From Malassezia japonica (taxonomy: Eukaryota; Basidiomycota; Malasseziomycetes; Malasseziales; Malasseziaceae), in contig NC_083370.1 of NCBI RefSeq assembly GCF_029542785.1, positions 1,302,001-1,366,000 on the forward strand: 64,000 nucleotides of DNA. The letters run 5' to 3'. Below the pieces are notes generated by a model that worked only from the letters and a program-made list of their open reading frames with translations, had not been told where the DNA came from and searched no databases. Shown one piece after another: positions 5,982-62,138 of this stretch; the first letter of the stretch is position 1; every line of letters starts with the position of its first letter. Position numbers and translations under genes: made by a program.

Positions 5982-8971
5982 TTACGAAGACGAGTACCAC
6001 GCTTTCGCGAGCGACAGCGCCTCGGCCGCGTTCTTTGCGCCAAACGCAGCGCGCACGAGCGCCGCAGCGCGGTGCCGCTGGCGCCGCTGCTCGGCAGCGT
6101 GGTGAGACGCTCGCAGCGCACGCGCGTGCTCCTGCGCCGAGGCGACGAGCGTGCGGGGTAGCCCTGCGAGCCGGGCGACGTGCACGCCGAGCGAGTCGGG
6201 CGCAAGGCCCTCTTGCAGCTTGTGCAGGAACACGATCTCCGTCTCGGCGCCGCGCGTGTCGAGACGCGTCGCCATGTGCATGTTGGCAATTTGGTCGGGG
6301 TAGGCGTGCGCGAGCGAGCCGAGAGAGACATAGTGCGTGATAAAGAGGACTTTGGGTGAGTGGCTGCCTTGCGCGAGGAGCGTGCCGAGCACTGCGTGCG
6401 CGAGCGCCGCGCCGTCAAACGTCGACGTGCCCCGCCCAAACTCGTCGAGGAGCAAGAGCGAGCGTGGCGTCGCAGTGCGCAGCATCTGCGCCGTCTCTTC
6501 GGCCTCGATCATAAAGGTCGACTTGCCGCGTGCGAGGTCGTCGTGTGCCCCCATGCGCGTCGCAATCGCGTCGTGGCACGGCATGCGTGCCGCCTCGCAC
6601 GGAACAAACGAGCCGATCTGTGCGAGGATGAGGGCGAGGGCGATGGCGCGCACCGTGCTCGACTTGCCGCCCATGTTGGAGCCGGTGAGGAGGATGGAGC
6701 GCGGGCGCTCGCCGCCGAGCGTCACATCATTCGGGACATAGGACTCGTCCCGCAGCGCCTCGACGACTGGATGGCGGAATCCACGCAGGACCACCTCGTC
6801 GTCCTCGGCAATGTCAGGGCGCGTATAGCCCGGAAGCGACGCGACGTCCGCAAGCGACGTGAGCGCGTCGAGCTCCGCAATGGCGTGCACGACGCGGTGC
6901 ATCGGTGCATAGTCTTGGGCGACACACTGCACATAGTCGCGCCACGCGACGCGCCCCGCCTCGGCGAGTTGCTCGCGGTGCTGCTCGCGCAGCTTCGAGA
7001 GGCGCACGATCGTAGGGGTATGGAAACGCACAGCAGCCTTGGTGCTGTTGACACGCACCCAGTCCGCCGGGGTTTTGTTCGCATCGGCCGTGCGCACCTC
7101 GATCAGGTTCTCGATGCCAGAGACCGAGAGGTACTGCAGCTTGGGCCGGTGAAGCAGCGTGCGCACCTCGTCGAGATGCGCCGCGAGCTGCGCGTCGTCG
7201 TCGGCGATCTGATCTTTCCACGATTGGATCGCAGGGTAGCGCGCGACATCGGCAAACAGCTCCGTCTTGGCATTTTTGCGCGCCTCGGCGATCTTGATCG
7301 CGTCGAGATGCTGCGCCACAGCTTCGCGCGCGGCCGCCAGCGACGCAAGCGCCTCGTCGAGCAGTGCCGAGCCCGAGTGCACCTCGCTCGCAGCGCGGAA
7401 AGGAAACTCGCGCGTGATGCGGTGCAGGCTCAAGAGGACCGTCGCGAGCTCGGTCGGCTCGACGAGGCCGTAGGCGATGCGCGCGAGGCCGCGCGCGAGG
7501 TCCGGCAGACGCACAAGCATCGCAGCCGCCTGGTGCAATATCGCGAGGCGGCGCTGGCGGAGAATGTCCACGGCCTCGGCGCGCTCGGCGATTTGTGCGG
7601 GGCGGAGGAGCGGGCGCCGCAGCCATTGCCGCAAGAGGCGCTTGCCCATCGGCGTCCGGCAGCGGTCCAGGTGCCAAAAGAGGCTGCCACGTACCTGGCC
7701 GTCGGTCGCATTGTGCATCAGTTCGAGGTTGCGCATCGTGTGGCTGCTAAGCAGCATCGATGTGCGGTCGTAGAATGCGCGGTAGTTGGCGGCCTCGCCA
7801 AACGCCGAGGCGAGTTGGTAGGATGCGAGATACTGCACGAGCTGCGCAGTGGCGCACTGCACGAGGGGCGGCAATGCAAGGACCAAGGGGAGTGTCGGCG
7901 CGTCCCAGTCGCTGGACGCGTCGGTAAGAACTGCCGCCGCGTCTTTGGCATGCACGCCGTCGACGCACTCGACGCGCGCAGGCTGCTCGCCCCGTGCATG
8001 CGCGGCGTATGCACGCAGAATGCGCTCCGTCTGCGCCGAGAGGCCAGACGGGAGCACGAGCTCTTTTGGTGCGAGGTGCGCGAGACGCGTCTCGAGTTCC
8101 TGGGTGAGTAGCACGACGTACACTGCGCAGGCCATCGTCGACAAACATGTCGTGCGTCACGGCGGCCGTCGCGACGTCCACGGCCGCCATCCCGATCTCG
8201 ACACGGTCGCCGTGCGGCCGCTCTGAGACGGTGAGCAGCACCTGCTCGCCGCCGAGCTCGTCGGGCGACTGTGCAGCACCAACTTCGTCGATCCAGGTGC
8301 TGGCCGTGTACAGCGCCGTGAGCTGGCGCGTGAAGGGCTTGTTCGCATTCTCTGTCGCGGCCTTGAGTGCGCGCGTCTCCGTCTGGCGGCACACGCCGAC
8401 CTTGTAGCCGTGTGCGACGAGGCGCTTGACGTGCACCGAGAGGCGGGGCACGGGAATCATGGCCGCCTCGAGGTTCTTTTCCGGAAAGCACGCCTGGGTC
8501 AGTACAGAGACGTACAATATTGAGCAGCTGACTCGCGATGCGCGCATCCTCCTGGTAAAACTTCATCTTGTAGCCGACTTCGACGAGGAGCAGCACTCCA
8601 GGATTCTCCTTTTTTAGCTGGAGGATCTGCTGCTCGAGCGGCGTGTACTTGACGGCCCCTTGGGCGGCCTTGTGGCGCGGCGCGACGACCGACGTAAAGG
8701 CAGCATGTGTGGGCCGGGGCGGCCGGATGGGGGGCAGCGTCGGGGAGGCCTCGGACGCGTGCGCGTCAAAGCGCAGCGTGTCGAGGAGATTCGTTCTTGC
8801 ATGCGATTGGGGCGCGTCTGGCATCGGCTCCTCTGCCTCGCGCGCCTCTGCTTCGCGCCCTTCTGGCACAAGCGCTTCTTTTTCCTGCGTATCTTCCTCC
8901 TCGACACGCGCCCGCTTCGGCGCGCGCGACGCGCCAAAGAACGCGTGCAGCGACGCTTGCCGTGGTGGCAT
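5982..8971 (-). CDS. MSH3: DNA mismatch repair protein MSH3
   Basis: Three exons on the minus strand, 8971-8516, 8493-8122 and 8099-5982, giving 981 residues. Both introns are exactly 22 nt. MSH3 pairs with MSH2 (MutS-beta) to bind insertion/deletion loops in the nucleus. Residues 5-12 (QASLHAFF) form a canonical PCNA-interacting box. The mismatch-binding domain follows (KYTPLEQQ, VEVGYKMKFYQEDARIAS, then GYKVGVCRQTETRALK across intron 1). The ATPase carries a Walker A (GSNMGGKSS, about residue 750) and Walker B with signature (LLLLDEFGRGTSTFDG, about 830). MSH3 rather than MSH6 is favoured by the YTPLEQQ and GYKVGV context and the short N-terminus. The start ATG is 33 bp from the divergent BET2 ATG. 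Confidence 0.93.
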
Positions 8972-9004
8972 AAAGACGCGCACGGTCGTCCACGTGCCTC
9001 CACG
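8972..9004. promoter_or_regulatory. 33-bp divergent MSH3/BET2 intergenic gap with CACGTG
   Basis: The two divergent start codons are separated by only 33 bp. The gap contains one CACGTG palindrome at 8991-8996. Any shared promoter must extend into coding sequence, or transcripts must have very short leaders. Confidence 0.5.
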
Positions 9005-10004
9005 ATGTCGCTGTTGGTCGAGAAGCATGTGGCCTTTGTGAAGAAGCTGGAGCAGAAGCGCGACCAGAGTCTCGCGTACCACATGACGGCGCACCTGCGC
9101 ATGAATGGCGTGTACTGGGGCGTCTGTGCGCTGGCGCTGATGCGTGCTGGTGACGCGCTCGACAAAGACGCGCTCGTCGAGTTCGTCCTGAGCTGTTTCG
9201 ACGAGGCGAGCGGCGGATTCGGGGCGTACCCCCAACACGACGCGCATATCCTGAGCACGCTGAGTGCGATTCAGATTCTTGCGTTAAAAGACGCGCTCTC
9301 TGCGCTCGGTGCGCGGCGCGACAAGGTGGTCGAATGTAGGTTGTCTATCTCACGCAGTTGTCCTCGCCCAGCAGCTCCCCAACGGCTCGTTCCAGGGCGA
9401 CCGCTGGGGCGAAACCGATACGCGCTTCCTCTACTGCGGCGTGAGTACGCTTGCGCACCTCGGAGCGCTCGACCGCCTCGACAAGGCGCTCACAACCACG
9501 TGGATCATGAAGTGCGCCAACTTTGACGGGGGCTTTGGCCTGACCGAAGGCGCCGAGAGCCACGCGGCGCAGGTCTTTACGTGCGTCGGCGCACTGTCGA
9601 TCCTCAAGTCGCTCGACCTGGTTGACAAGGACATGCTCGCCTGGTGGCTCGCCGAGCGCCAAGTCCCGCAAGGCGGCCTGAACGGGCGGCCGCAAAAGCT
9701 GGAGGATGTGTGCTACTCGTGGTGGGTCCTATCATCGCTCAGCCTTTTGGGGCGGCTGCACTATATCGACGGAGACAAGCTCCAGTCGTTTATCCTCTCT
9801 GCGCAAGATCCTGACGGCGGTGGCATCGCCGACCGGCCCGACAACGTCGCCGACGTGTTTCATACCGTCTTTGGCGTGGCGGGCCTCTCGCTCCTCGGCT
9901 ACGCGGGGCTCGAGGAAGTGGACCCCACTTACTGCATGCCGCTTGCACTGACGACAAAGCTCGGCATCAGCCGGCCGTGCCAGCGGCTTGCGAGACGTAA
10001 TTAG
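9005..10004 (+). CDS. BET2: Rab geranylgeranyltransferase (type II) beta subunit
   Basis: Two exons, 9005-9335 and 9358-10004, split by a 22-nt intron; 325 residues, the usual Bet2 length. The enzyme, with Bet4 and the Rab escort protein, prenylates C-terminal cysteines of Rab GTPases in the cytosol. Visible family features are repeated QW-type helices (GGFGAYPQHDAHILSTLSA, NGSFQGDRWGETDTRF, DGGFGLTEGAESHAAQVF) and the zinc ligands: Asp and Cys in KLEDVCYSWW and His in ADVFHTVFGVAGLSLLG. It is preferred over farnesyl or type I subunits because of the short length and these strings. Its TAG stop (10002-10004) overlaps the stop of the convergent gene. Confidence 0.94.
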
Positions 10005-17334: not shown

Positions 17335-18857
17335 ATGGCCTCTGCGTCTTCGTCTGTGCTGCGTGCCCGCGCAGGGTCCCTGCGTCAGGCACAGGCATTC
17401 TTTGCCCGCAAAACACCTCTCGAGAAAGAATGGGCTGGAGCTTTGCGCATCGGCGCCGAATCGCTTACCGGACGGGCCGTGCGCATGGACCATACCCGTG
17501 CCGGGCTGACTGGCGCACGTACGATGGCGACTGCGACGCTCGACACGTCCGACCTTCCCCCCATTCCCGACAAGCGACTTACAAGTATGTGCCATACCTG
17601 ACCCAGGGCTGATTCCCCGTACCAAGCGCCACCCCGTCCCACAGGACACGGCCGAGTCGATTGTTGGTCTGATCGTCAACGAGCCCGCGCCCGCCAACGC
17701 GACGCAGCAGCGCGAGACCGAGGCGCAAGTATATCAACGTAGGTCGCATCTACTGACCCAGTCCTCGAAGACAGCAAGCAGTCGTCCGCGTCGCTCCGCC
17801 AGCTTGCGGCTGCTGTCCTGCAACTGTCACGCGACAAGGACCGCAATCTCGTTGCGAGCCGCTTGTACGCCATGGCCTACCGGCGCGGTGACGACGACGC
17901 TGGCTATTCGTGGGCGACCATGGTTCTCGAAGGCATGGTGCCGAACGAGGTCGACTCGACGACGAAGCAAGTTGACGATGCCATGCGCCTCTACGCCGAC
18001 CTGGCGCGCAAAGGGCACGCACAGTCCCTCTTTGGCATGGGCCGCTACCTGCTCGCCCAGGCCACGCGCGAGCCCGAGACGGCCGAGAAGCGCGTCCCCC
18101 GCGCGATTGAGCTGTGGCAGCGTGCCGGCAAGAGCGGCATGCCCGACGCTTGGTACGAGCTCGGCCGCATGTACGAAGCCGGCGAGCTTGTGCCCCAAGA
18201 CAAAGACAACGCGCTGACCTGCTTTGAGCACGGTGCGCGTGCCGGGAGCTCGCTGTCGTGCTATGCGCTCGGCGTGTTGCACGCCGAGCGCGCCAACAAA
18301 GCGCACGAGAGCGGCGACGCGAAAGCCTCGCACTCTGCGAGCACGCTAGCCAACCGCTACTTTTTGCAGGCCGCGCAGAAAGGTCATGCGCCCAGTGCGT
18401 ACAACATGGGCGTCCGCTACCTCCTCCGGGACGCGACCGATGATGCGTCGACGCCCGAGCAGCGGCGCAGTGCGCACCAGGCACAGTGGGGCATTGTGCC
18501 GGACGATCGCAGTGCGCGCGAATGGTTCGGTGCTGCGTCCTCGAAAAGTACGTCGCTCTTCTCACACTAGATTTCATGCCTGCGATGATGAACTATGGTG
18601 CGATGCTCGTCGACGGGCGCGGCGCGACGACCAACGGCCCTACGGCCGACGATCTCTTTGAGGCGAAGCGCGTCTACCGTCGCGTGCTTGTCCTGGGCCA
18701 AGTCGCGCAGCAGAACCCAAGCCTGCTGCCGGGCCGTGCCACGGGCGACACACCCGAGGTCATGAAGCACATGGTGCAACAAGCCGAGCACGCGCTGCAG
18801 CACATCAACACGCTGCAGCCTACATCGCCTGACGAACTCCCCCCGCACCGGTCCTAG
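17335..18857 (+). CDS. Sel1-like repeat protein with probable mitochondrial presequence
   Basis: Four exons, 17335-17584, 17607-17738, 17762-18547 and 18571-18857, giving 484 residues. Introns are 22, 23 and 23 nt. The first 45 residues (SSSVLRARAGSLRQAQAFFARK) are basic and amphipathic, so mitochondrial import is likely but inferred. From about residue 165 the protein consists of Sel1-type helical repeats (SLFGMGRYLLAQA, DAWYELGRMYEAGELVPQD, SLSCYALGVLHAERA, SAYNMGVRYLLRDA, MMNYGAMLVDGRG). Such repeats mediate protein-protein contacts. The exact orthologue is not recognised. Exon joins were chosen because each restores the repeat frame and uses the GTRNGY/CTNAC/AG pattern. Confidence 0.8.
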
Positions 18858-19073: not shown

Positions 19074-19882
19074 ATGGCCTCGGTTCAGCAGATCGTCATG
19101 CACCCCTACGTCTCGCAGCTTGTACGTATCGCATATGGGTGAACTGCGTACTTACACACCCCACAGCTCAAGTTCTGGAGCACCACGGTCGGCCGTGACA
19201 AGTCGGCGCGTTCCGTGCAGTACCTCTCCCGCTTCCTGGCCTGGTACACCCTGAGCCAGGGTGCTCCTAAGGAGACGGTCGCACGCTGGTCGTCGATCAA
19301 GTCGAACATTGGTCTCAGCCGCAAGCGTACGTTGCTCAACTAACACCAGTGTTCCGTATCGGCAAGTTCCTGGAGCACTTCCAGGCCGCGCTCAAGGCCA
19401 CGAGCACTGCGGACCCCGTGCTGAAGTACACTGCCATTGGCCGTCAGCTCGGCTACGCCTGCTACCTCATCCTTGATGCCCTGCAATGGGTCCACGGCGC
19501 CAAGGCCTACGTCTTCGAGAAGGAGACCATCCAGAAGATCGCCAAGAACGCTGCCCGCTTCTGGCTCGCTGGTATCACCTTCTCGCTCATCAGCGGCGCG
19601 TACAAGTCGTACCAGCTCGCCCAGCGCACCAAGCTCGCCCAGCGCCCGCGCGCCACGGCCGAGAAGGAGGCCGAGCGCCGCGTCGAGCTCCACCAGATCG
19701 CTGCCGATACCAAGGCCGTCCGCCTGCAGATCCTCCAGGACTGCTGCGACTGGGTCAACCCTGGTTCGAGCACCGGCTGGATCAACACCAACGACGGTGT
19801 CGTTGGTGCTGCCGGCACTCTCAGCTCGCTGCTTGGCGCTCGCGCCCAGTGGATCAAGGTCAACGGCGCCCCGAAGAAGTAG
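19074..19882 (+). CDS. PEX11: peroxisomal membrane elongation/division factor Pex11
   Basis: Three exons, 19074-19121 (only 16 codons), 19167-19326 and 19350-19882; 246 residues, typical for fungal Pex11. Introns are 45 and 23 nt. Pex11 inserts an amphipathic helix into the peroxisomal membrane and drives elongation before fission. Family strings are MHPYVSQL, then ARSVQYLSRFLAWYT, LFRIGKFLEHFQAALK (the amphipathic helix region), GYACYLILDALQWVHG, and a C-terminal hydrophobic stretch at GVVGAAGTLSSLLGA. It is convergent with eIF3b, with 79 bp between stops. Confidence 0.95.
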
Positions 19883-27483: not shown

Positions 27484-28455
27484 TTAGGCATCCTTCCCCA
27501 CACGGTACTTGCTCAAGTCCGTATCCGGTCTGTGTCAGTACAAGCCACGTACTCCAGTTGTCCGTTCACCGGGTTGCGCCGCGCGCTAAAGAAGGTATAG
27601 CTCAGCACCACGTCACGCACGTCGCGCGACTCTGCATCCTCGAGCATCTCCTTGTCGAGGAAGAAGAACACGGGCAGATCGACCTCTTCGCCGGCGAGCA
27701 GCTTTTGCTCTTCGAAGCAGAAGCACTCGATCTTGGCAAAGTAGGGCGCAATACGGTCGGGAAGCACGTTGTACGTGGCAATACCGATAATATCTTGATC
27801 CGTCTGGTTGTGCGCCTTAAAAAACGTGAGCGCCGTCTCGCCCGGCAGCACGTAAATCTCGCGCTGCTGGGGCACAAAGGACCAGGGGATCTGGTCCGAG
27901 TGGCTCGCGTTGAACGAGACACGGATGCGCTGCGTCGCATTCTTCTCGTTGAGTGGGTCATGGTACGATGGGCTCAGGCGCGACACGTCTGCGTACTGCG
28001 ATTTGTCGGTCATGGGCGTGCCGCTGTAGCCTGTCGCGGCACAAAAGAGGCGGTAAAAAGGCACCGCTGCGTAGCTCAGGCCGAGTGTCATAATGAGCTG
28101 TATATGAGTAGAAAATACGTACACCCGCCGCGGTATACATGGCAATGCTCTGGTTGCGCTTGCGCAGGTCGTCCATGCGCATTTTTTGGTGCTGTTCGCG
28201 TGCGCGTTTCAGCTCCTCGGTCGAAATGAAGCGCGCGAGTGGCATGGTCGGCAGACCACACCGCGCAGTGAGTGCAGGGCGACAGAGCCCCGGGTATGTA
28301 GGGCGCAACGCGGCGCGCGCCAAGAGCCCAGTCATTCTCGCAGTGTCGAGCGAGAAGCGTGGCGCCACTTCCACTTGTTCTCCAAGTGGAGGCTTACGGC
28401 ACGTGCCACCGGAGCGGTGCGGGTGGCAACGGGGTGGCGCTGGCGGAGGAGTCAT
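27484..28455 (-). CDS. COX11: cytochrome c oxidase copper chaperone Cox11
   Basis: Three exons on minus, 28455-28123, 28097-27553 and 27529-27484; 307 residues. Introns are 25 and 23 nt. Cox11 delivers copper to CuB of Cox1 in the inner mitochondrial membrane. The single transmembrane segment is LIMTLGLSYAAVPFYRLFCAATG, rebuilt across intron 1. The copper-binding ECFCFEEQ motif and PVFFFLDKEM follow. The last exon (46 nt) was found by applying the local intron rule: it replaces an implausible end with PDTDLSKYRVGKDA and keeps frame. A second in-frame ATG at 28335 (MTGLLARAALRP) gives a better mitochondrial presequence and may be the true start; a CACGTG lies upstream of it at 28400. Confidence 0.93.
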
Positions 28456-35688: not shown

Positions 35689-36666
35689 CTACGACGAGGC
35701 CTTCTTGGGCGCCGCGGCGTGGCGGACATAGCGTTTGGCAAACACGCCCTTGCTCAAACGCACGACACTGGGCTTTTTGATGGTCACAACGCGCGACGGG
35801 GCGATCGTGCCGTTGCGGCGGTGCATCGGCTTCGGCTGCTCCACCTTGGTGCCGACCTGCGCCGCGAGCTCGGGCGTGATCTCGCCGGCAAAGACGCGCT
35901 TGCCGGTCGCAGGGCGTGTGAGGATGCGGCCGCGGCTGGGCCGCACGAGCTCCATCGAGTTCCAGCGCTCGTCGTCGCTGCGGCGGCGGCCCTCGACGGC
36001 GTCCTCGGCGCGGATGCGCTCGAGGTAGAGCGTCGCCTTGGCCATGAGCTCTTTCCGCGCCTCTTCGCCGCGGTACTTGATGAGCTTGGAAATGTTGCGG
36101 CGGGTGAGTGGCGCAAAGCGCTCGTCGTGCTCGAGGGGGATGTTCTTTTGCGCTTCGAGGAGCGTGCTCAGCTCGCTGATGCTCAAGTTCTTTTGGGCGC
36201 GGCGGAGGAGAATATCGGCCTCACGCGCCATCGCACGCGCGGTCATGTCGAGCTTGACGTCCGTCGGGTTATCGACGAGCTCGAGGATCGCACGCGGCGC
36301 GTGGTCGCCTTTGCGGTGGCCCATCAGGTGCACACGCGTATAGCCGCCGGGGCGGTCGGCGTAGCGCTCCGCCATCTCGCGCAGACGCGCCATAGAGCCT
36401 GCTGTAGAAAAGAGGAAGGACTGCGCACCCGACATGGCCGTCGGCGTACCGCGCTTGCCGAGTGTAATGATTTTTTCCGCGCAGCGCGACGCCTCCTTGG
36501 CCTTGGCGACGGTCGTGACAATGCGCTCATGCGCGAGGAGCGAGGTCACCAAATTCCTGCGTTAGACTATGCGGCGTACCGAAGGAGATGGTTCCTGTGC
36601 GACGCTAAGGTCAGTCGTCCTATACGTACACGAGCGGTTCAGTTTCCGAAACGCCAGCCCTTTCAT
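35689..36666 (-). CDS. MRPL8: mitochondrial large ribosomal subunit protein bL17m
   Basis: Three exons on minus, 36666-36630 (37 nt), 36604-36580 (a 25-nt micro-exon) and 36556-35689; 309 residues. Introns are 25 and 23 nt. Only this splicing yields MKGLAFRKLNRSSSHRNHLLRNLVTSLLAHERI, the conserved bL17 start. The bL17 domain continues through RCAEKIITLGKRG. The fungal mitochondrial C-terminal extension (about 190 residues, including NISKLIKYRGEEARKEL and basic ends) follows. The micro-exon encodes the RNA-contacting SSHRNHLLR segment. The gene is divergent from ACP1 by 112 bp. Confidence 0.93.
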
Positions 36667-45660: not shown

Positions 45661-46131
45661 CTATCCAACTAGTTTTCCAAGTCTGGGTAAGCTCAGCAAA
45701 CTCGGCAACGTACTGATGTTCGAGCCAAACTTGGCGTACAATGCGACCTTGAGCTCGTTCATGCCCGACTCGCACTCGTCCATCACCTTTTGGAGGCGCG
45801 CGAGCTCCTTGTCGGCGCGCTGTGTGTCCTGCTCGAGCTGCGTGACGGCATCCTCCTGTGCCATGCTAATGTATGCATCGCCCACCTTGTACCTACTGTT
45901 AGCCATAGCACATACAGAATGCGCTCGTCCTCGAGCAGCTCAAGCTCCATGCCGAGATCGTCGAGCTCCTCGCGCTCCGTACGCCGCGCCTTGAGCTCCT
46001 CCTCGACGTCGCTAAAGGTTGCATGCAGACGACTGAAGCGGTTGATCCGCTGCTGGTCCTCCCACGACACCTCGACGTCGTTATTGCTCTTCTCGTCCAG
46101 CTGCATTAGCCTCGCAACGTACCATCCGCAT
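45661..46131 (-). CDS. GIM3: prefoldin subunit 4
   Basis: Three exons on minus, 46131-46123 (9 nt: Met-Arg-Met), 46100-45916 and 45892-45661; introns of 22 and 23 nt; 141 residues. Prefoldin is the hexameric chaperone handing actin and tubulin to CCT. VSWEDQQRINRFSRLHATF, then LELLEDERIL-YKVGDAYISM across intron 2, are typical of the beta-type subunit Pfd4. Long coiled-coil heptads flank the hairpin. The tiny first exon is supported by the common MRM start of fungal Pfd4 proteins and by a perfect 22-nt intron. Divergent from SKI3 by 56 bp. Confidence 0.93.
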
Positions 46132-46187: not shown

Positions 46188-49100
46188 ATGTCGAGTGTCG
46201 ACAAGCAGATGCTGCGCGATACCCGCGCGCTCATACAGAAAGGAGACTGGGAGAAGGCGTCGGAGAAAGCGTACGTACCACCCCTAACGCAGTGCGGCGA
46301 TCCTCGAGTTCTCGCCGGAAAACTACAATGCGTACGTCGTTCGACTCACCCAGCCTCGTCTTCCGGGGTCTTGCGCTTCTTCACCTCGGTCAAGAGGAGG
46401 GATCCGAGACGTCATACCTGCGTGCGACGGAGGTCGATGGTAGCCAGGTCCTTGCCTGGCAGGGTCTCGAGAAGCTGTACAGCACGCAGAAGCAGTGGGC
46501 CAAGCTCGGCAATGTCTACCATCACCTCGCCGACATTGCGCTGAGTGCGGGCGACGCGGAAAAATGCGGAAACGCACTCACGAAGCTTATTGCGTTGCGG
46601 CGGCAGCACGGGTCGTACCCCGAGATCGCGCAGGCACTGCTCACCTTTGTGCCGCCGTCCAAGTACTGCTCTCTTCTCGAGACGCTTCCGGTGCCCGACC
46701 AGGCGGCGCCGGCGTCGAACCCTGCCTTCAACGCGCAGATGCTCGTACATGTTGGCGCGCTCGAAAACGTCCTCGAGCTGATCGACCTCCTCCAAAAGGC
46801 CGACACGCTCAAGATGGACGAGATCGTCAAGAAGCAAAAGAGCACACTCGAGGGCGCCAAGCTCGGCATGACTCTGCTGCGCAACCAGGCGACTGCTACG
46901 GTCTCGGCCCAGTCGCGCGTCCCGTCGCTGTACGAATACGTGATCAACTCGCCGCGTGCCGACGACAAGATGCGCCGCGACATGGAGGGGCGGCTGCTCC
47001 GCTTCTACCACCGCTTTGTGACCGCAATCCCGACGCGTGGCCCGTCTGCCAATGCGGGGCTCAAGAAAGAGATGCATGAAAAGACGTACGAGCTCGCCAA
47101 AGGCGCCGTGCTCCTCGGCATCTCTGACGAGCTCGCCTGGTCCATCTTTTTGGATTGGGGCGACTTTGCGCTCGTCCATCTGCCGTACATGCACCTGCTT
47201 ACCTTTGTGAAGCTCTTCCCCCGCTCGGCGCGCACCAACTCGATCCGCGCGCTTCTGCGCCTGGTCGGCGACGAGGCGTACCAGCGCGGCGACGCTGGTG
47301 AAGTGACGCGCGAGCAGATCCTCAAAGAGACGGACCTCTTGCAGCTCGCCCTCGATGGCCTCGACAATAAGCAGGACACTCTCTTTGCGCAGCGCATTGT
47401 CGCGCTCTTTTACCTGCTCGACAAGGACTATGCGTCGGCACTGGATATCCTTCTTGCCGCACACAGCAAGCTCGGGGACCGCGAGGCGAGCACCGGCGCG
47501 CCGGCCACCCACGTCACCCTCGAGCTCAATGCGCAGCTCGCGACGGCGTACACGCACCTGCACCCCCCCAAGTACCACAAAGAGGCGCAGCGCCTTACCC
47601 AGGCGGTCCTCGCCAAGGACGGCACAAACCTTGACGCGCGCTTTGACCACGCCTACCTGTGCAAAGCGCGCGGCGCCTGGTTCGAAGCTCGCCGCGGTTT
47701 CGAGGTCGTGATCTCGCTGGCGGCTGCGCAGGCCGAGTCGCTGCACGAGCTGCCCGAGAGCCCCGGCCGCAACCTGGCTGCGCTGCAGCTCTCGCCCGAC
47801 GCGCGTCTCGAGGCCGAGGCCGAGCTGGCCAACACGCTGATCGAGCTGAAGGAGCTTGTGCCCGCCAAGGACATGCTCGATGCGATGATCGAGCAGTACG
47901 ACAATGACGACAACGTCTTTGGCGCCGAGTTCCGTGCGCGCCTGTGGTACCTGCTCGGCCGCTGCTTCTGGGCGATGGGCGGCGAGTTCCGCAAGGATGC
48001 GCAGCATGCGTACCGCTGTTATGTCACGGCGATCAAGCGCTGCGGCTCGTTCGCCCCCGCCTTTACCGCCCTTGGCAAGTACTACGAGACGGAGGCGACG
48101 CCGCCGGACCTCGTGCGTGCGTCCAAGTGCTTCCAGAAAGCCTTTGAGATGGACGCGACCGAGTTCAGTGCCGCACAGCGCCTCGTCGAGCACTTTGCGG
48201 ACCAGCGCGAGTGGGGCCTTGTGGATGTGATTGCGCGCCGCGTGATCGAGGCGGAAGGCGGCGTCGAGGCGCTCGCCGGCCGCCCCAAGTCGGGCATCCA
48301 CGTCTCGCCGAACGCGTGGGTCTGGAAGGCGGTCGGCATTGTTGAGGCGCTGAACAACCACCCCGAGCAGGCGATTGTTGCGCTGCAGGTGACGCTGCGC
48401 TCGAACCCGCACGATGTCGACGCGTGGGTGCGCATGGGCGAGGCGTACCTTGCCTTTGGCCGTCCGATCCCTGCGCTCAAGACGTTTGGCAAGGCGCTGC
48501 AGCTCCTCGGTGCGACGCCGAGCGCTGGCGTGGAAGAGTGGCACATTTACTACAATGTCGCCGAGGCGCAGCGCCGCCTCGGCCGCTTTGACCGTGCCGT
48601 GACGATCCTTGCCCAGATCGCCGAGCAGCGCCCGGAGCAGCACAGTGTGCGTGCGATGCTTGCCGAGACGCGCCTCGACGAAGGCCGCCGTCTCCTTGCC
48701 TCGGGCTACGCCGCGCGCGCGCACAGCACGCTGCGCCACGCGATCTACGACGCGGTGTGTGCGCTGCGTGCCGACAAGCTGCTGAGCACCGCGTGGAAGG
48801 TGGCGGGCGATGCGTGTTTCTACCTCTCGAAGCTCGACCTGGGCCGTGCGCCGGACGACGCGGCGGCCGTTGCCCCGCCGCAAGGCGCCGCAGGCCTGCG
48901 CAGCACGCTGTACGAGCTCGTGCTGATGCTCGGCCAGCTTGACCTCGACGCGCGCCTCGCGGCGATCAGCGCGGTGTCGGCCGCGGACCTCACCGCCGCG
49001 ATTCCCGCCGACGACGACTGGAGCGAGCCGCGTGCGGCAGAGTACGCTCAGCATGCGGTGCTGTGCTACAAGTACATCGCCCAGGCCCAGTCAAGCGAGT

Positions 49101-50862
49101 CCAAGGTGACGGTGTTTTCGTGGGCCGATCTCGCCACTGGCCTCGCGCGCCTCGCGGCCACTGCCGACGAGGCCACAAGCACGCTTGCGCACGAGCAGGC
49201 CGTGCAGTGCGTCCGCCTCGCGCTGTCGATCAAGCCGCAGGCCCGTCTGTGGCTGCTCCTCGGCAACCTGCACTTTGCGCGCGACGTCGGCACGGCGCAG
49301 CACGCGTACATCATGGCGATCGAGAGCAGCCCCAAGAGCCCCGTGCCCTGGACCTCGCTTGGATTCCTGTACCTGAGCCAAGGCGACGCAGAGCTCGCCG
49401 AGCAGGCGTTCCTGCGTGCGCAGACCACGGCGCCCGACTGGCCCATGAGCTGGCTCGGGCGCGCGCTGCTCGCCGAGCACGGCGGTGACGCGCGTGCGCG
49501 CCTCGCGCTGTTTGAGCACGCCTACACGCTTGCCGAAGGCACCTCGCTCGAGGCCGACTATGGCTTTGCCATGTCGGCCTTTGTGCGCCTGCGCCAAGGC
49601 GCCAAGCTGTCGCAGACGCAGGTCCTGTCACCGCTCCTTGCGCTGAACCACTATGTCGCGCGGGCGCCGGTCGACGACGCCGGTCTGCACCTTTCTGCAC
49701 TGCTCGCCGAGCAGCTCGGCGCGGACCGCCTTGCGATCGAGCGTATCGAGCGCGCTGCCGCGCAGCTCGAGGCGGGCTTTGAGGCGACCGAGAGCACTGC
49801 GCTTGCGCTCAAGTACGGCATTGCGTCGATGAACCTCGGCCGCATCCGCCTTGCGCGCCGCGACGCGGACGGCGCGATCGAGGCGTTTGAAGGCGCACTC
49901 GCGCTTCTCGGCGAGGAGGACACCGAGGCGGTGCCGGTGCACGCGGATCAGCTGCAGCTCACACGCACCTCTGCGTCGGTCGGCATCGCGCATGCGCACT
50001 TTATGCAGGGCGCGCACGCCGACGGCATCGCCGAGCTCGAGGCGGCGCGCGCCGAGCTGCACGCGGCCGGCCTCGCAGACGATGCCGTGGCGGCGGCCCA
50101 TGCCGAGATCGCGGTACTCCTCGCGCGCATGCGCTGGCAGACGGGCGATCGCACGGCGATCGCCGAAGAACTCGACACGGCGTACGTACCCAGACTGACC
50201 CAGCCTCGCGCTCGCACCGACCGACTCGCTGCTCATCACCACCCGCGCGGCCCTCGCGTCGGCGGTGGGCGACACTGCGCAGTACAATGCAGTGCTCGGC
50301 CAGTTTGCCGCGTCGCTCTCGCCCGCCAAGAAGCTGCAGCTGCGCAACAGCCCGGCGACGGCTTCGCTGAGCATCTGGCAGCTGGCGGCTGCGGTACGTT
50401 GCTCTACTAACCCAGTTCCCCATCGATGCGCTGCTGCAGCACCTCGCCACGACGATCGGCTCGAGCGACTCGTCCACCGCCGTGCTCGTCCTTGCGGCCG
50501 AGACCATGACGCGCCTCGGCGCGGCGCGCGTCGCTGCTTCGGAGCCGCTGCCGTCGCTTGCGCTCGAGCAGGGCTCCGTCCTGGGCGTCGCGCGCCGCGT
50601 GCTCCGCGCCGTGCGCGAGCGCGAAGAGGGCGACTTGTACTGGCCGGACGCCGTCGCGAATCTCGCGCTCGCCGAGCTGCTCACCACGCGCGAGGCGACG
50701 TACACGCCCGAGGAGCCGGCGGCCGACGACGACGCGCCCAAGGCCCCGCGCGAGGTGCCGAGCGCTGCCGCAGCGGCGCAGCACGCCGCGGCGGCCGTGC
50801 ACCTCGCGCCGTGGCACGCCGGCCACCGCCGGCTGCTCGCCGCCGCGCACGGTCGTAATTAG
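46188..50862 (+). CDS. SKI3: Ski complex TPR scaffold Ski3
   Basis: Five exons, 46188-46270, 46293-46331 (39 nt), 46354-50181, 50204-50393 and 50416-50862; all four introns are exactly 22 nt; 1528 residues. Ski3 (TTC37) is the TPR scaffold of the Ski2-Ski3-Ski8 helicase complex, which feeds mRNA to the cytoplasmic exosome. The start MSSVDKQMLRDTRALIQKGDWEKASEKA, then AAILEFSPENYNA and LVFRGLALLHLGQ, match Ski3 only after splicing. Dozens of TPR helices follow (AWQGLEKLYSTQKQW, AYRCYVTAIKRCGSFAPAF, PVPWTSLGFLYLSQGDAELA). The C-terminus is Ala-rich. The stop is only 17 bp from the ATG of ALG7 on the same strand. Confidence 0.93.
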
Positions 50863-52490: not shown

Positions 52491-53097
52491 TGCTCGGCAA
52501 GGTAGGCCTGTAGCTTTGCGAGCGCGCGCCCCCGGTGCGACACCTTGTTCTTCTCGGTGCCGTCCATCTCGGCAAAGGTCTTGGACGTCTCGTCCACCTC
52601 AAACACGGGGTCCCAGCCGAAGCGCGTCGCGCCGCGGGGCACGACAATCTTTCCGGCGGTCGTGCCCTCGAACAGAATCGGCTCCTCGCCCGTACCCGGC
52701 GAAAAGGCAAAGGTGCACAGCGCCGTCGCGCTCTTGTCCTCAAAGCCGGCCAGGAGCTTGGGAAGGCCTGCGTCAGTTTGGCGACCTACCGTCCACACCG
52801 AGGTTGCCCAAAAAGTCCTTGATGTACGGGCCGGGCAGGCCATTCAGCGCGTGGAACTTCAGCGCGGTGTCCTCCGTGAGGCACGGTGCCTGGAGCTGCT
52901 CCGCGGCCGAGCGGCACTTGGCGAGCGCGACTTCCTGCGTGGTCCCCTGAATTTCCGGCACTGCGTCAGCCAAGCGACATACCGTCGAGTTCGCGCGACT
53001 CGAGCGTCCAGCTCGATGCGGACGACGACTCGAGGATCTGCTTCACCTCGCGCAGCTTGTTCGCGTTGCCGGTCACAAACGTAATGACTCGCGCCAT
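52487..53097 (-). CDS. HAM1: inosine/xanthosine triphosphate pyrophosphatase
   Basis: Three exons on minus, 53097-52983, 52960-52790 and 52767-52487, with two 22-nt introns; 188 residues, the usual Ham1 length. The enzyme hydrolyses deaminated purine nucleotides (ITP, XTP) to monophosphates, cleansing the nucleotide pool. [16 protein letters not shown] (substrate-loop lysine), then [38 protein letters not shown] and [18 protein letters not shown] are diagnostic. The ATG is 24 bp from the divergent TRM140-like ATG. Confidence 0.96.
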
Positions 53098-53121: not shown

Positions 53122-54201
53122 ATGCACGATACAAAAAAGGCGACGTCGTCCGCGATGCCGGTGACGGCCGACGCTGCGCCGGACCACACGTCCGGCTCGC
53201 GCACGCTCGACGACGCGGAGGATGTGTGGAATCACAATGCATGGTAGGTCGCGTGGCTAATGCAGGGACCACGTAGAGCCCCCGCCCGAGCACCTCGCGA
53301 TGGTCGACGAGCTCCTGGCGAAGCAGGCGGAAGCGCGCGTGAGCGACGCGGACGCGGACGTATACCACAGCAATGCGGCAGGGTACTGGGACACGTTTTA
53401 CTCGCGGCATGAGAACCGCTTCTTCAAGGACCGCAAGTGGCTCCACCTCGAGTTTCCGGAGCTGATGGCGGCGACCAAGGCGGACGCACCGCCCACAACG
53501 ATCCTGGAAGTGGGGTGCGGCGCGGGCAACACCGTGTTTCCGCTGCTCGAGGCGAACAAAAATCCGGGCTTGCGTCTGATTGCGTGCGACTATGCGGCGC
53601 AGGCCGTCGAGGTGATCAAGTCGAATCCGCTGTACAGCGCGCCGCCGACCGGCGCGTGCGAGGCGTACGTCTGGGACCTGAGCGCAGGCAGCAATGCGCC
53701 GTCGTTTGATGCGTCGCGCCTGCCGCCTGGCGTGCAGCCCGGCACGGTGGATATTGTCGTGCTGGTCTTTGTCCTTTCCGCGCTGCACCCCCGCGAGTGG
53801 GCCGCGGCGGCAGAGAACGTGTACCAGATGCTGAAGCCGAAGTCGGGCATCGTGCTGCTGCGTGACTATGGGCGGCACGACCTGCCGCAGCTGCGCTTCA
53901 AAAAGAACCGCTTGCTGGACGATAACTTTTACGTACGTGGCGACGGGACGCGTGTCTACTTTTTCGACCCCCACGAGCTGTACACCATCTTTGGCGCGAC
54001 GCCGCGCGACGTGCAAGAGAGCATGTCGGTGGAAGAGGACGGCGAGACAGTGTCCAGGACGACCCCGGTCCCCCCGCCCCCCCGTCCGACATGCGCTTTT
54101 CCACGCTGCAAATGGCCGTCGACCGCCGCCTGCTGGTGAACCGTAAAGAGCGCAAGCGCATGTACCGCGTGTGGATGCAAGCCAAGTTCCAAAAGCAATA
54201 G
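53122..54201 (+). CDS. TRM140: tRNA m3C methyltransferase (TRM140/METTL2 family), with apparent one-base frameshift near the 3' end
   Basis: Exon 1 53122-53243, a 22-nt intron, exon 2 53266-54201. The family N-terminus DVWNHNAWDHVEPPPEHLAMV forms across the intron. The SAM-binding motif I is ILEVGCGAGNTVFPLL, followed by ACDYAAQAVEVIK, VFVLSALHP and LLRDYGRHDLPQLRFKK. The frame is lost at a C-rich stretch (C6 at 54070-54075, C7 at 54077-54083). The continuation MAVDRRLLVNRKERKRMYRVWMQAKF, the hallmark C-terminus of METTL2/Abp140, lies in another frame to TAG 54199-54201. One extra C restores a 352-residue protein. No intron of the local type spans the shift. Either an assembly homopolymer error or a recent mutation. 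Confidence 0.85.
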
Positions 54202-54213
54202 GGTATGTACAGG

Positions 54214-56120
54214 CTACAGGGCCATAATCTCGTGCATGAGCAGCGTCTCTGTGCTCGATGCGAACCAGCCGCGGTCGCCCGAGCTGGTGAGCAGGAACTG
54301 GGCGCGCTCGTCGATGAGCATCTGCGAGATCGTTCCGCCGTGGTGGCCAGCGACAATTTTGAACGGCACCTCGTGCTGAGGATCGGTATGGGTATTCCAC
54401 AGGCGCACGTTGTCAAAGGAGGCGCAGACGATGTGCTGGTCGTTTGGCATCATCACGACCGAGCTCACCGGCCCGCTGCCCCGCGGGAGACGCAGCGAGC
54501 GCATATACCGCGGCGCCTTGTCGCCCGGCGACGCACTCGGGCCGCGCTCCGGGTGCTGGAGATCAGGGAGCATGCGCACGTCCCACTCGTCCACGGTCTC
54601 GTTTCGCCGGCCGACGTAGATCTTGTCGCCCGCGTAATTCCAGCAGGCGCTCATGCACCACGGCGGCGTATTCGGCGGCAGCGGCAGCGCGCGCACGCCG
54701 GGCTTCGCCTTGTTATCCACGCGCCGGTCCCATAGCAGCACCTGGCCCGAGAGCGTGCTCGTGAGCATGATATCCGAGCTGAAACGCGAGACGTCTGCAT
54801 CGTACTGCCACGGCACGCTCATCGAGCCAAACATGGGCTTGGGGAGCTGGCGCACGTTGGTCTTGGGTACGGGCTTTTCCTCTTCCGGCTTGGTGGGCTT
54901 GGTGGGCTTGGCGGGCTCGTCGGTCTTTTGGCCTGGGAGCGCGAGCGAGAGCCCGTTGGCCTTGACCGGCGGCGCGGTCGTTTGCGAGAGCGGCGCGTCG
55001 TCGCTTTCCTCGTCCTCGCCTTTGGCATCAAAGAGGTCCGCAGCGCCATCCGCGTCGGCGTCCGAGTCGCCGGACGCGTCTTCCGACTCGCCCGACGCGT
55101 CCGCGGCGCCCTCGGCCATCGACTCGTCGCGTCCTCCAAAGAGCGAGTCGCCGTCATTGTCCTGGTCATTGTCCGAGTCGAGCACCGCGTCGTGCTCTTC
55201 GGCGGGAGGCGCATCGCTCGACGACGCGTCCTCCACGCCCTCGCTCATGTCCTCTTTCTGCTCGAGGGACTGCGCGATCTCTGCCTCGAGCTCCTCCTCG
55301 ACCGGCGACGTCGGCGCGGTGGTCGCCGCTTCCGGATGGATCACGATGCTGGGCGCCGGCACGCTCGGCGTGTACAGTGGCCGGAATGCGATGCACGAGA
55401 CCTGGCCCGCATGGCCGTCAAACGAGCGGACCGTCTGCCCCGTATGGAGGTCCCATTGCTGTGTGAGAAAGAGACACGTACATAGACGCCGCGGTCCCAG
55501 CTGCCGCTCACGAGCTCCGTCTGCGCGTCCGAGAGCGCAAGCGCAGACACAGCCGCGGTGTGCTTGCGAAAGACGTGCCGGAGCCCCCCCGCGTCGTGGC
55601 GCAGGCCAAAGAGGTTAATGTTGCCCGCCTCGCCGCCGCTCATGCCCCACAGCGCGTTGCGCTCGACGGCGAGACTGTGCACTGCGCTGAGCGGCGCATC
55701 GGTACGCGTCAGCGGATCGCCTGGCGCGAGGTGCACGTTGCCCCACCACGTCGTGAGGACACCGCCGCGCGACACGCCTTCTACAAACGAGCTCCGTAGG
55801 TTTTGCGTGAGCATATTCTTTCCGTTCATGCTGGCACACAGGTCATACCAGCGCACGTATCCATCGCTTCCACCCGAAAGCAGGATACTTGCGTCCTGTA
55901 CGAGCGACATCGCATGGATCTGCGTCGCCTGCGGCGCGGCGCCGACGGGGTCGATCGCGTAGCCTTTGCGTGTTTCCCGCAGAGCCTGTGCCGGCTCAAA
56001 GAGCGAGCGTCGGTGCTGGATCGCGGAAATGTACGCGTCGAGCGTGGCCGGCGCCTCGGGCTGCGCAGGCACGCCCTCGGCCATCTCCACGTCCTCCTTG
56101 AGCAGCTCCCCACGCTCCAT
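54214..56120 (-). CDS. SPT8: SAGA complex WD40 subunit Spt8
   Basis: Two exons on minus, 56120-55482 and 55458-54214, separated by a 23-nt intron; 627 residues. Spt8 is the fungal SAGA subunit that contacts TBP. N-terminal strings LDAYISAIQHRRSLFEPAQALRE and GYAIDPVGAAPQATQIHAMSL precede WD repeats (ILLSGGSDGYVRWYDL, ALALSDAQTELVSGSWDRGVY, then QWDLHTGQTVRSFDGHAGQVS across the intron). A long acidic, Ser/Asp-rich insert (about residues 245-345) splits the propeller, followed by MFGSMSVPWQYDADVSRF and DERAQFLLTSSGDRGW. The order matches fungal Spt8. Its stop is 12 bp from the TRM140-like stop; the SWP1 stop lies 43 bp upstream of its ATG on the same strand, with CACGTG at 56142-56147 in that gap. 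Confidence 0.9.
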
Positions 56121-56163
56121 ACCGCGTCGTCGTCGACAGATCACGTGGGTCGGGTATGAGGCG

Positions 56164-57225: not shown

Positions 57226-57571
57226 ATGACTCTCGACACGCAGTTCGACACCGCCGTGAACATCATCAAGAACCTGCCCAAGAACGGTCCCCTGAAGGTC
57301 AACCAGGCCCAGCAGCTCAAGGTGTACTCGCTCTACAAGCAGGCCACCGAGGGTGACATCAACACCCAGCGCCCTGGTCTCCTCGACCAGACCGGCCGCT
57401 ACAAGTGGGACGCCTGGAACAGCGTCAAGGGCAAGTCCTCGGAGGACGCCAAGAAGGAGTACGTCCAGCTGTTCTTTGAGCTCTTTGAGCCTGTCAAGGG
57501 TACGTTGCTCCACTCACACAGACGACCTCGAGTACTCGAAGCACATCGAGGCGGTCAAGAACGCTGCCTAA
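57226..57571 (+). CDS. ACB1: acyl-CoA-binding protein
   Basis: Two exons, 57226-57499 and 57522-57571, joined over a 22-nt intron; 107 residues. ACBP binds long-chain acyl-CoA esters in the cytosol. The four-helix core shows QQLKVYSLYKQATEGDIN, RPGLLDQTGRYKWDAWNS and KKEYVQLFF, with the Lys/Tyr/Trp acyl-CoA contact residues. Exon 2 supplies the final helix DDLEYSKHIEAVKNAA. It is slightly longer than the typical 86-90-residue ACBP because of both ends. The 140-bp gap to SWP1 has no CACGTG. Confidence 0.95.
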
Positions 57572-57622
57572 TGGCACGGTACATAGAAACATGCGCCGGG
57601 GTATCTATTTCTAATACAATGG

Positions 57623-58174
57623 TTAATCCCAGTCGAGCTCGTTGTCGAGCTGCTCGAGCGACGGCGCGGGCTTGGGCTCGCTTGCGCCGGCCGTGCCGGC
57701 CGCGCCAGACGCGAGGTGCTGCTGGAAGGCGACCGCCGCGGCCTGGTAGCCGCCGTGGTCGATTGCCGCACCGTCCTCGCTGGTGGGCATGCGCTCCTTT
57801 GCGCGGTCGTCACGGATCATGCTCGGATCTACGCGTCCGTCCTCGCCTTCGACCTGCAGCATGAGCTGGGGCGTCTTGGCCTCGATGACCTGTGTCAGCT
57901 TCGCTGCGTACATAGGGGTTGTCACAGTGGGGGCAAAACTCGTCCGCCTCTTCGTACTGCGCCATGTCCTTGCGAAAGGCGCGCCTGCACTTCTTGCACA
58001 GAAACGCCAGCTCGGTCGTCTTGGCGAGCGGATGCGACTCGCGCTCGGCGTGGCACTCGGGGCACTGCGTTAGTTTTGCGACCTACATCAAAGAACTTGC
58101 GACAGCATGGCGCACGAACCGCGACTTGCGCGTTCAGGATATGCTTGCTGCGTCAGACACGCCACCTACCACAT
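57623..58174 (-). CDS. CHY-type zinc finger protein
   Basis: Four exons on minus, 58174-58170 (only ATGTG), 58147-58087, 58064-57912 and 57889-57623; three introns of exactly 22 nt; 161 residues. The rebuilt N-terminus MCKHILNAQVAVRAPCCRKFFDCPECHAE continues LAFLCKKCRRAFRKDM and FCPHCDNPYVIEA. Cys/His spacing fits the CHY zinc finger of small fungal proteins related to yeast Hot13. The segment KTPQLMLQVEGEDGRVDPSMIRDDR follows, then a less conserved tail. The role is unclear; Hot13 itself acts in mitochondrial zinc handling, but this protein is longer and equivalence is not claimed. Splitting after five coding bases was chosen because no other frame gives CKHI. Confidence 0.85.
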
Positions 58175-58267
58175 TCGTGTTGGAACGCGACGCCGCAGCT
58201 GTTGCCAACATTTCCGCGTGACCTACAAGGAGGAACCCAAAATGCGCGGCTCGCTTTCTCGTCCAGC

Positions 58268-59683: not shown

Positions 59684-59712
59684 AGCCACGTGATGTAGTG
59701 GGACAGGTTGCG
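59684..59712 (+). promoter_or_regulatory. 29-bp same-strand gap ERG26/CDK11 with CACGTG
   Basis: CACGTG occupies 59687-59692, 4 bp after the ERG26 stop and 21 bp before the CDK11 ATG. Confidence 0.45.
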
Positions 59713-60930: not shown

Positions 60931-60970
60931 CGTGGAGGCGCCGATTTGTCAGCGCTTGCCACTCGACTCG

Positions 60971-61343
60971 ATGCTCTTTGCGCGCCCCTCCCTTACGATG
61001 CGTGCGCTGCGCGCTGCGCAGGCGCCGCGGTACGTGCGTGCGTTCGGCACGTCCATCCCCGTGCGTTCTGAGGACCTGTCGACGCCCGAGGCGAAACAGA
61101 ACCGCATCATTTCGATCCTCACGGAAAAGTTTACGCCCGAGGACCTGCAGGTGCAGGACATTAGCGGTATGCATCGAAACTGACGCAGGCGGCTGTGGCT
61201 CATTCTTTGCGATCATGCTCAAGTCACCCGCATTCACGGGCAAGTCGACGATCCAGGCACATCGCATGGTGAACAAGGAGATCAAGGACGTGATCTCGGA
61301 CATCCACGGACTGCAGCTCAAGACGGTCGCGTCGGAGAAGTAG
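60971..61343 (+). CDS. BOL3: mitochondrial BolA-like protein Bol3
   Basis: Two exons, 60971-61166 and 61189-61343, with a 22-nt intron; 116 residues. A presequence (FARPSLTMRALRAAQAPRYVRAF) precedes EAKQNRIISILTEKF and, across the intron, DISGGCGSFFAIMLKS and HRMVNKEIKDVISDIHGLQ. The Cys in GGCGS and the HRMVN helix identify the BOLA3/Bol3 type, which acts with Nfu1 in late insertion of 4Fe-4S clusters into lipoate synthase and complex II. ATG 60971 is preferred. Stop-to-stop spacing with the convergent gene is 11 bp. Confidence 0.93.
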
Positions 61344-61354
61344 ACGCTCATACC

Positions 61355-62138
61355 CTACGCACTATTGGCACCCGAGCTGCGGGCGTTTTTCGGCTGGATG
61401 GGGTACAGCTTGACGTAGGACGGGCGCATCGCATGGGCGAGACACTGCGGCGGACTCCACGACACCGCAAGGTTGCTCTGCGCCTGAAAGGGGGCGAGCG
61501 CGGCGAGCGCGGCGTGTGCGTGCTCGACATGCATAAAGTCCACGTCCACGACGTACTCCGGGCCATAGTACACCTCGGCCAGCAGGTGCACCGGGCCGTA
61601 GCACGCGGCGAGCTGTCCGACGAGCTGCATGAGTCGAGCGACGTACCGACAGCGAAAAGTTGGCGCGGCGCGACGCGCGGGGGTGCTTCACCGAGTGCTG
61701 GCTGACGAGCTCTGCGAGGCCAGCGGGGCGCGCAGACATGTCCCAGAGCGCACGGAGCTGCACCCCGGTACCCCACTCGGCGAGGCGGAAGCGCAGCGTC
61801 GCGGGCGTGTGCACCAGCTCCATGCACAGGTAGATGCCGTAGAAACGCGCATAGGGCATGCTATCCAGCACCGCCTGGGCGTACGTCTCGTGCACAAAGC
61901 TTGCCAGCGCGCCTGTCACCCATCCTGACTGTGGGCAGAGGAGAAGCTCGACGTGCGCGACCGGCGCCCACGTCGAGAGGTGGGCGAGCAAGTCCAGCTC
62001 AAACGAATGGCTTGGCTGCGTGCCAAAGGGGAAACCGTGTATATACAACACCACACATATCTGCAGCCTGTTTGCTCCGCCAAGGCGCGCAAAGAAGGGG
62101 GGCATCGCCTCGGGAGGCGCACTCGAGGGGGGTCGCAT
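61355..62138 (-). CDS. probable RRM-fold RNA-binding protein, function unknown
   Basis: Two exons on minus, 62138-61647 and 61624-61355, joined over a 22-nt intron of the local pattern; 253 residues. I do not recognise an orthologue. The first half (ICVVLYIHGFPFGT, then VAHVELLLCPQSGWVTGALASFV and AVLDSMPYARFYG) has the strand and helix order of an RRM. The second, rebuilt across the intron (FSLSLVGQLAACYGPVHLLAE, YVVDVDFMHVEHAHAALAAL), resembles another, without classical aromatic RNP residues. The start is supported by an ATATAAA TATA-like box (minus orientation, 62192-62186) about 50 bp upstream. The RRM call is inference from pattern only. Confidence 0.6.

Follow-up and report, generated by a model that had tools for sequence, protein, structure and literature searches.

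A class of predicted 22-nt introns with strong, fixed-position signals in Malassezia japonica

Passages of one report describe Stentor introns of 15-16 nucleotides (nt) that lack a strong branch consensus and mostly have their branch A at base 10 (PMC9505925), and extracts of others give 18 or 19 nt for nucleomorph introns of Bigelowiella natans (PMC12316389, PMC2483917) and, for Paramecium bursaria, a median of 24 nt and a minimum of 15 (PMC12862383). In the relevant part of a comparison of 50 species, donors were weak and a branch signature was absent in lineages with short introns; where short introns did carry strong signals (Encephalitozoon, Trichomonas), introns were few (PMC2483917). 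Reported introns are longer in other Malassezia species and in Ustilago, which share the subphylum of M. japonica. The passages on intron statistics give a median of 30 nt (PMC9241646) and a mean of 37.2 for M. restricta, and a mean of 76-79 for M. globosa (PMC9241646, PMC4634964, PMC2219887, cited jointly for both genera); U. maydis introns supported by expressed sequence tags span 24-1,899 nt with a mean of 169.8, introns below 20 nt having been filtered out (PMC2219887). In the methods extract of an annotation of M. restricta, minimum intron lengths of 20 and 15 were used (PMC6473144). Here we describe introns predicted in a 64,000-nt stretch of M. japonica (NC_083370.1, positions 1,302,001 to 1,366,000; the window) and in the genome as a whole (8,433,779 bases, 9 contigs), for which part of an earlier report predicts nine chromosomes and 62.35% guanine plus cytosine (GC) (PMC7025860). 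A preliminary description of the window had proposed a dominant, rigidly templated class of 22-23-nt introns and had placed it near the known minimum for any eukaryote. The class is borne out by a motif-blind parse, a genome-wide count and a length scan, all of which agree on a sharp length mode; its rank is not, as the lengths cited for Stentor, B. natans and P. bursaria are shorter.

The template GTANGY-N7-CTNAY-NCAG, in which N7 stands for seven free bases, has 2,880 matches in the genome (1,478 and 1,402 by strand), compared with 4 (1 and 3) for the pattern read backwards, which served as the control for template counts, and with about 2.8 expected by chance from base composition. Whole-genome template counts were made for 22 and 21 nt, and local scans covered 264 kilobases (kb), comprising the window and twenty 10-kb pieces drawn from all nine contigs. 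When length was scanned by motif only, ignoring frame, the 200 kb outside the window gave 63 matches at 22 nt (control 0), 18 at 23 nt (1), 4 at 24 nt (0) and 10 at 25 nt (2), with one to four at each length from 18 to 21 nt. The length histogram over the 264 kb likewise peaks sharply at 22 nt.

To avoid circularity, we built a motif-blind parser. It relies on codon usage and reading frame, and charges the same fixed cost for every GT..AG intron between 12 and 120 nt. Run on the 264 kb, it placed 98 introns, 39 of them 22 nt and 10 of them 23 nt long, with no other length occurring more than four times. When GT..AG was replaced by the control dinucleotides TG..GA, GA..TG or CT..AC, the share of 22-nt introns was 3 of 88, 0 of 85 and 2 of 87, respectively. 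Because these control runs placed nearly as many introns in total, and because the motif-blind output includes chance introns (seven are below 22 nt, four of them 13 nt long), only the length peak is informative. The template is matched by 35 of the 39 motif-blind 22-mers, two more differ by a GTGCGT donor alone, and two look spurious; the GTA donor proposed for the window is therefore not universal outside it. Of two motif-aware parsers, the stricter found 122 introns in 162 gene models; its 113 higher-scoring introns include 56 of 22 nt, 19 of 23 nt and 8 of 25 nt. Where the flanking sequence suffices, 62 of 70 template 22-mers score better spliced by frame and codon usage, compared with 243 of 1,517 other GT-N18-AG 22-mers; 17 of 21 23-mers also do so.

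The 39 motif-blind 22-mers carry 24.0 bits of information, of which 9.7 lie in bases 1-6, 1.9 in the spacer, 6.6 in bases 14-18 and 5.8 in bases 19-22. CTNAY, which is complementary to the GUAGUA box of U2, occupies bases 14-18, with the presumed branch A at base 17. Among 81 22-nt matches there is little constraint at base 16 (A 26, G 26, C 19, T 10), C prevails at base 4 (C 59, G 12, T 9, A 1), and a G stands directly before the intron in 45. Past base 6 the donor signal seems to continue, with G at base 8 in 46 and C at base 9 in 47 of the 81, A being rare at both (5 and 9). The C at +4 is shared by 14 of 18 motif-blind introns of 24-40 nt, and therefore looks like a property of the genome rather than of the short class alone; in the stricter motif-aware parse the +4 C of longer introns is partly circular, as the donor profile was derived from the motif-blind introns. 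The gap between CTNAY and AG is two bases in 69 of 75 introns of 22-24 nt and looser (1-12) in introns of 25-49 nt. The distance from branch to AG is thus set and short, with no polypyrimidine tract. A pyrimidine tract within the spacer was also considered and rejected, as only a mild trend was seen (pyrimidine fraction 0.83 at base 9 and 0.22 at base 13). In the 23-nt class the extra base had been placed either before the branch motif or before the AG, which describes 15 and 6, respectively, of 22 motif matches in the 264 kb; one fits neither.

Comparisons with known systems draw on extracts of the cited papers. Like the type B introns of Trichomonas vaginalis (about 23-25 nt), the M. japonica class is very short and has a conserved donor and branch (PMC2483917, PMC12316389). 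However, Trichomonas is intron-poor and the rest of its intron is mainly polythymine (PMC12316389), whereas M. japonica has about 2,900 template matches, about nine in ten of which favour splicing where tested, and spacers of 59% GC. With Paramecium, the Bigelowiella nucleomorph and Stentor it shares numerous introns with a main class within about 15-25 nt, and with Stentor also a branch A at a nearly fixed base. Unlike Paramecium and B. natans, which are described as having weak donors and no branch signature (PMC2483917), and unlike Stentor (PMC9505925), it has strong signals in both donor (9.7 bits) and branch motif (6.6 bits). The set, short branch-to-AG distance without a following polypyrimidine tract recalls the 3'-anchored branch class of Yarrowia, Giardia and Trichomonas (PMC2483917), although Yarrowia introns are long, with a median of 204 nt for the 719 introns in the table of that paper.

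Removal of the predicted introns from the sequence restores reading frame and protein. We compared Pfam scores of translations with the introns spliced out or retained in the start frame, with X at stops (one frame). HAM1 (PF01725, 185.8 bits), the zf-CHY domain (43 bits) and BolA of BOL3 (PF01722, 45.7 bits) are detected when spliced and give no match when retained. Scores fall from 297.7 to 54.2 bits for Prenyltrans (PF00432), from 94 to 30.3 for SNRNP27, and from 185.7 to 142.8 for a METTL16-family gene with its 22-nt intron retained.

Alignments to homologues point the same way. Both HAM1 junctions are gap-free in an alignment of 13 homologues, chosen from 120 listed and including seven from other Malassezia. 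The conserved C-terminus (SHR...) is lost or garbled in six of these seven (P0001, P0003, P0004, P0008, P0028, P0037) and intact in P0002; judged from the proteins alone, it is as if a tiny intron had been missed in annotation. In SKI3 the junctions of introns 1 and 2 are gap-free in five of nine aligned proteins (P0237, P0243, P0244, P0247, P0250), three of them from other genera, and the remaining four are without that stretch. The junction of intron 3 is continuous in P0236, P0237 and P0240, all from Malassezia, and in P0235, while P0233 diverges there; that of intron 4 shows clear continuity with M. yamatoensis P0236 only, and less clear continuity with P0237 and P0240. M. yamatoensis SKI3 lacks the stretch matching the 39-nt microexon between introns 1 and 2, which the proteins of other genera have. 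Two SKI3 entries of more than 2,000 residues (P0234, P0237) also bear PF00953, and perhaps represent a fused gene model.

A sharp lower limit was seen in the number of bases, k, between GTRNGY and CTNAY, with counts summed over one to six bases before the AG in the 264 kb. Values of k from 0 to 6 together gave 11 matches (control 13), and k=6 alone none (2), compared with 96 (2) at k=7, 25 (2) at k=8, 8 (0) at k=9 and 8 (4) at k=10. Given the step at k=7, no spacing of less than 16 nt between the first G and the presumed branch A was seen above chance level in these sequences. Of the 96 matches with k=7, 81 have the 3' end CTNAY + N + YAG, and C precedes the AG in 77 of these. Four matches of 21 nt were found in the 264 kb with k=7 and one base fewer before the AG, and none with k=6 and the full 3' end. 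No intron shorter than 22 nt had been reported for the window, and no 21-nt template match occurs in it; genome-wide that statement fails, because GTANGY-N7-CTNAY-YAG has 42 matches compared with 3 in the control (the k=6 form was counted in the 264 kb only). Of these 42, 36 end in CTCACCAG, although base 16 is loose in the 22-nt matches (C in 19 of 81).

We consider it probable that these introns belong to the U2 type (major spliceosome) and have shrunk to the smallest size that the spliceosome can physically handle; excision, branch base, geometry and decay are all read from sequence in this proposal. The donor hexamer (bases 1-6) would be bound by U1 and next by the ACAGAGA box of U6, and CTNAY would pair with the GUAGUA box of U2 around the branch A at base 17. 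The seven intervening bases would then be the minimal bridge that lets both helices occupy the active site together, and the floor at k=7 would be a geometric limit, seven bases being the shortest connection from donor helix to U2 branch helix. The AG would lie so near the branch that no polypyrimidine tract fits after it, and deletion would have driven most introns to that limit. One base fewer at the 3' end gives 21 nt, a multiple of three, which is the proposed reason for the dominance of 22 nt: this would be the smallest size at which the seven-base bridge and the preferred NCAG end are both kept and which is not a multiple of three, so that retention would shift the frame and become visible to nonsense-mediated decay. 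In line with this argument, there are 29, 6 and 14 matches at 23, 24 and 25 nt, with 24 nt below both neighbours (P 9e-5 compared with their mean).

Several observations weigh against this proposal. The ACBP score is neutral (98.9 bits spliced, 98.5 retained), the intron lying after the domain, and 8 of the 70 template 22-mers are not favoured for splicing. All three 21-mers tested by frame in the 264 kb are splice-favoured, yet two of them also leave the frame open when retained. One 21-mer lies in the METTL16-family gene, whose domain score rises slightly on its removal (185.7 bits removed, 183.7 retained); retention of a neighbouring 22-nt intron costs more, as given above. The dip at 24 nt is not significant when set against the mean of 25 and 26 nt (P 0.16), and 27 nt, with 5 matches, equals 26 nt and shows no clear dip at this multiple of three. 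An in-frame stop lies inside just 15 of 53 22-nt introns examined, and the median distance to a stop is 109 nt. The idea that lengths other than multiples of three are kept for detection by decay is therefore plausible, weak and unproven. Finally, the donor step is left without its small nuclear RNA (snRNA): searches for U1 with Rfam models RF00003 and RF00488 gave nothing at E <= 10, with 41 of 132 and 11 of 52 first-look candidates scored.

Other parts of the machinery are present. A U2 gene with GTGTAGTATC and a U6 gene with ATACAGAGA and the ACAGAGA box were found, so that for donor pairing the U6 box was seen in the genome and U1 was not located. A U2AF65-like frame on contig C9, 100% identical over its full length to MJAP1_004289, scores below the curated TIGR01642 cut-off; its RRM1-RRM2 and part of its UHM match human U2AF65 in the PDB, and Pfam finds one RRM. 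Pattern searches for U1 were made as well. TACCT...TCANGAAG gave 18 matches, fewer than the 23 of the backward control, and none of the 16 inspected (the window match was left out) was U1-like; the one at C8:107002 was rejected, as it lies at the start of an apparent protein-coding frame and matches no U1 family. ATACNTACCT gave 57 matches compared with 25 in the backward control; all were screened by script, the 25 least coding-like were read, and none was U1-like. ATACTTACCT does not occur in 8.43 megabases (0 of the 57 ATACNTACCT matches); this search did not cover ACTTACC with a different first base, and the absence was not set against a number of ATACTTACCT expected by chance. Many ATACGTACCT matches, which were not counted, may be reverse complements of AG/GTACGTAT donors.

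The near-absence of A at +4 is a related question. In the extract on Saccharomycotina, U at +4 is preferred where METTL16, SNRNP27K or methionine 141 of the latter has been lost; U1 and U6 stay unchanged, and the U1 sequence ACUUACC is reported as invariant (PMC10581693). In M. japonica a METTL16-family gene (PF05971, with NPPF in its protein) and an SNRNP27 gene are both present, and the residue aligned to human M141, with numbering counted from that alignment, is methionine. Loss of either factor was therefore rejected as the cause, and with the U6 ACAGAGA box also kept, another cause is needed. The METTL16 assignment is kept at family level: PF05971 also matches 5 of 14 prokaryote controls, and among PDB chains psilocybin synthases come closest, followed by METTL16. 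RED/IK (PF07808) gave no match, but neither did any control, which makes that search uninformative. We think it rather improbable that a hard 16-nt ruler from donor to branch, with thousands of introns pressed against it, is combined with a U1 whose 5' end has been altered to match the GTACGT donor. The points cited for an altered U1 are the missing ATACTTACCT, the empty Rfam U1 searches, and A at +4 in 1 of 81 matches despite the METTL16-family gene and SNRNP27 M141.

Three other explanations can be set beside a spliceosomal floor. The introns may be spliceosomal, with the length peak resulting from selection for overlapping signals or for economy and without a hard steric limit at seven spacer bases. 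The position of the branch A in Stentor, mostly base 10 in the extract cited, suggests that the core chemistry permits a shorter distance (PMC9505925). We nevertheless regard this explanation as unlikely, because a cost gradient would suggest a gentler rise than that from 0 to 96 matches seen in the 264 kb when a seventh spacer base is added, and because the local 21-nt matches drop their base elsewhere than in the spacer.

A mobile, recently copied introner-like family with a 22-nt unit would also yield thousands of same-length matches to one template, its uniformity stemming from shared ancestry and not from the spliceosome. In the 39 motif-blind copies the spacer holds 1.9 bits compared with 22 bits elsewhere, so that the signals are shared and not the sequence; recent copies were ruled out on that measure. 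The 22- and 23-nt introns also occupy all three phases (22, 31 and 19 in phases 0, 1 and 2), and we hold an origin of this kind to be very improbable. We give hardly any credence to the notion that the 22-mers are not introns at all, and either stay in the transcript and are translated with a frameshift or are removed by a pathway other than the spliceosome, such as the HAC1/XBP1 type. Their GT..AG ends come with a branch motif complementary to U2, longer introns share the donor (the +4 C of the 24-40-nt set), and the stops inside 15 of 53 argue against reading through them.

The predicted 22- and 23-nt introns of the window are listed in the table. All twelve 22-mers located individually in the preliminary description (7 on the - strand) lie where they were placed, and GTABGY-N7-CTNAY-NCAG has 18 matches in the window, nine on each strand, which equals the number of 22-nt introns counted there. 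The total of 44 introns, with 18 of 22 nt and 10 of 23 nt, was approached and not reached by the less strict motif-aware parser (43, 15 and 8) and by the stricter one (32, 12 and 8). Three window 22-mers are absent from the gene models of the former: 46101-46122 and two in the CHY gene, which the parser fused into a single 105-nt intron and for which manual splicing supports separate introns. Coding in the CHY gene appears to start with an exon of five bases (58170-58174, ATGTG). The label MSH3-like is taken over as an assumption from the preliminary description, and the gene following 46101-46122 is presumably prefoldin-like.

Table. Predicted 22- and 23-nt introns and template matches in the window.
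Position	Strand	Feature	Evidence and remarks
8100..8121	-	22-nt intron, MSH3-like gene, second in transcript order	template; gene model; junction at codon boundary
8494..8515	-	22-nt intron, MSH3-like gene, first in transcript order	template; gene model; junction at codon boundary
9336..9357	+	22-nt intron, PF00432 prenyltransferase-like gene	template; gene model; Pfam score
17585..17606	+	22-nt intron, gene 17524-18857	template; gene model
17739..17761	+	23-nt intron	gene model
18548..18570	+	23-nt intron, extra base before AG	stricter gene model; frame test; another model prefers 18512-18570
19327..19349	+	23-nt intron, extra base before AG	gene model; frame test
27530..27552	-	23-nt intron	gene model
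31886..31908	+	23-nt intron	gene model
32076..32098	+	23-nt intron	gene model
36557..36579	-	23-nt intron	gene model; not in stricter model
45893..45915	-	23-nt intron, extra base before AG	gene model; frame test; 20-nt reading ending three bases earlier also open
46101..46122	-	22-nt template match at start of prefoldin-like gene, status uncertain	template; not in model; ATG within match also opens frame
46271..46292	+	22-nt intron 1, SKI3-like gene	template; gene model; alignment
46332..46353	+	22-nt intron 2, SKI3-like gene	template; gene model; alignment; 39-nt microexon 46293-46331 between introns 1 and 2
50182..50203	+	22-nt intron 3, SKI3-like gene	template; gene model; alignment
50394..50415	+	22-nt intron 4, SKI3-like gene	template; gene model; alignment
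52768..52789	-	22-nt intron 2, HAM1	template; gene model; alignment; Pfam
52961..52982	-	22-nt intron 1, HAM1	template; gene model; alignment; Pfam
53244..53265	+	22-nt intron, methyltransferase-like gene, outside Pfam domain	template; gene model; domain scored spliced only
55459..55481	-	23-nt intron	gene model
57500..57521	+	22-nt intron, acyl-CoA-binding-protein (ACBP) gene, downstream of Pfam domain	template; gene model
57890..57911	-	22-nt intron 3, CHY zinc-finger gene	template; gene model; manual model
58065..58086	-	22-nt intron 2, CHY zinc-finger gene	template; manual model; zf-CHY score
58148..58169	-	22-nt intron 1, CHY gene, right after 5-nt first coding exon	template; manual model
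61167..61188	+	22-nt intron, BolA-like (BOL3) gene	template; gene model; Pfam
61625..61646	-	22-nt intron, gene 61355-62105	template; gene model

Among the titles and abstract openings listed, a scope that leaves out subscription literature, there was no description of a 22-nt intron class for Malassezia. On the genomic evidence, the 22-nt class of templated predicted introns in M. japonica is genuine. A length of 22 nt is no eukaryotic record, and what appears unusual is the combination of thousands of minimal introns with strong signals. It joins two traits that the extract from the 50-species comparison describes as opposed, numerous ultra-short introns and strong signals at fixed positions (PMC2483917). 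Gene finders may overlook 22-nt introns and 39-nt microexons, and the deposited Malassezia HAM1 and SKI3 proteins, two genes judged at the protein level, deviate in ways that would fit missed introns or microexons. The smallest workable distance from donor to branch may be readable from a fungal genome, and testable base by base.

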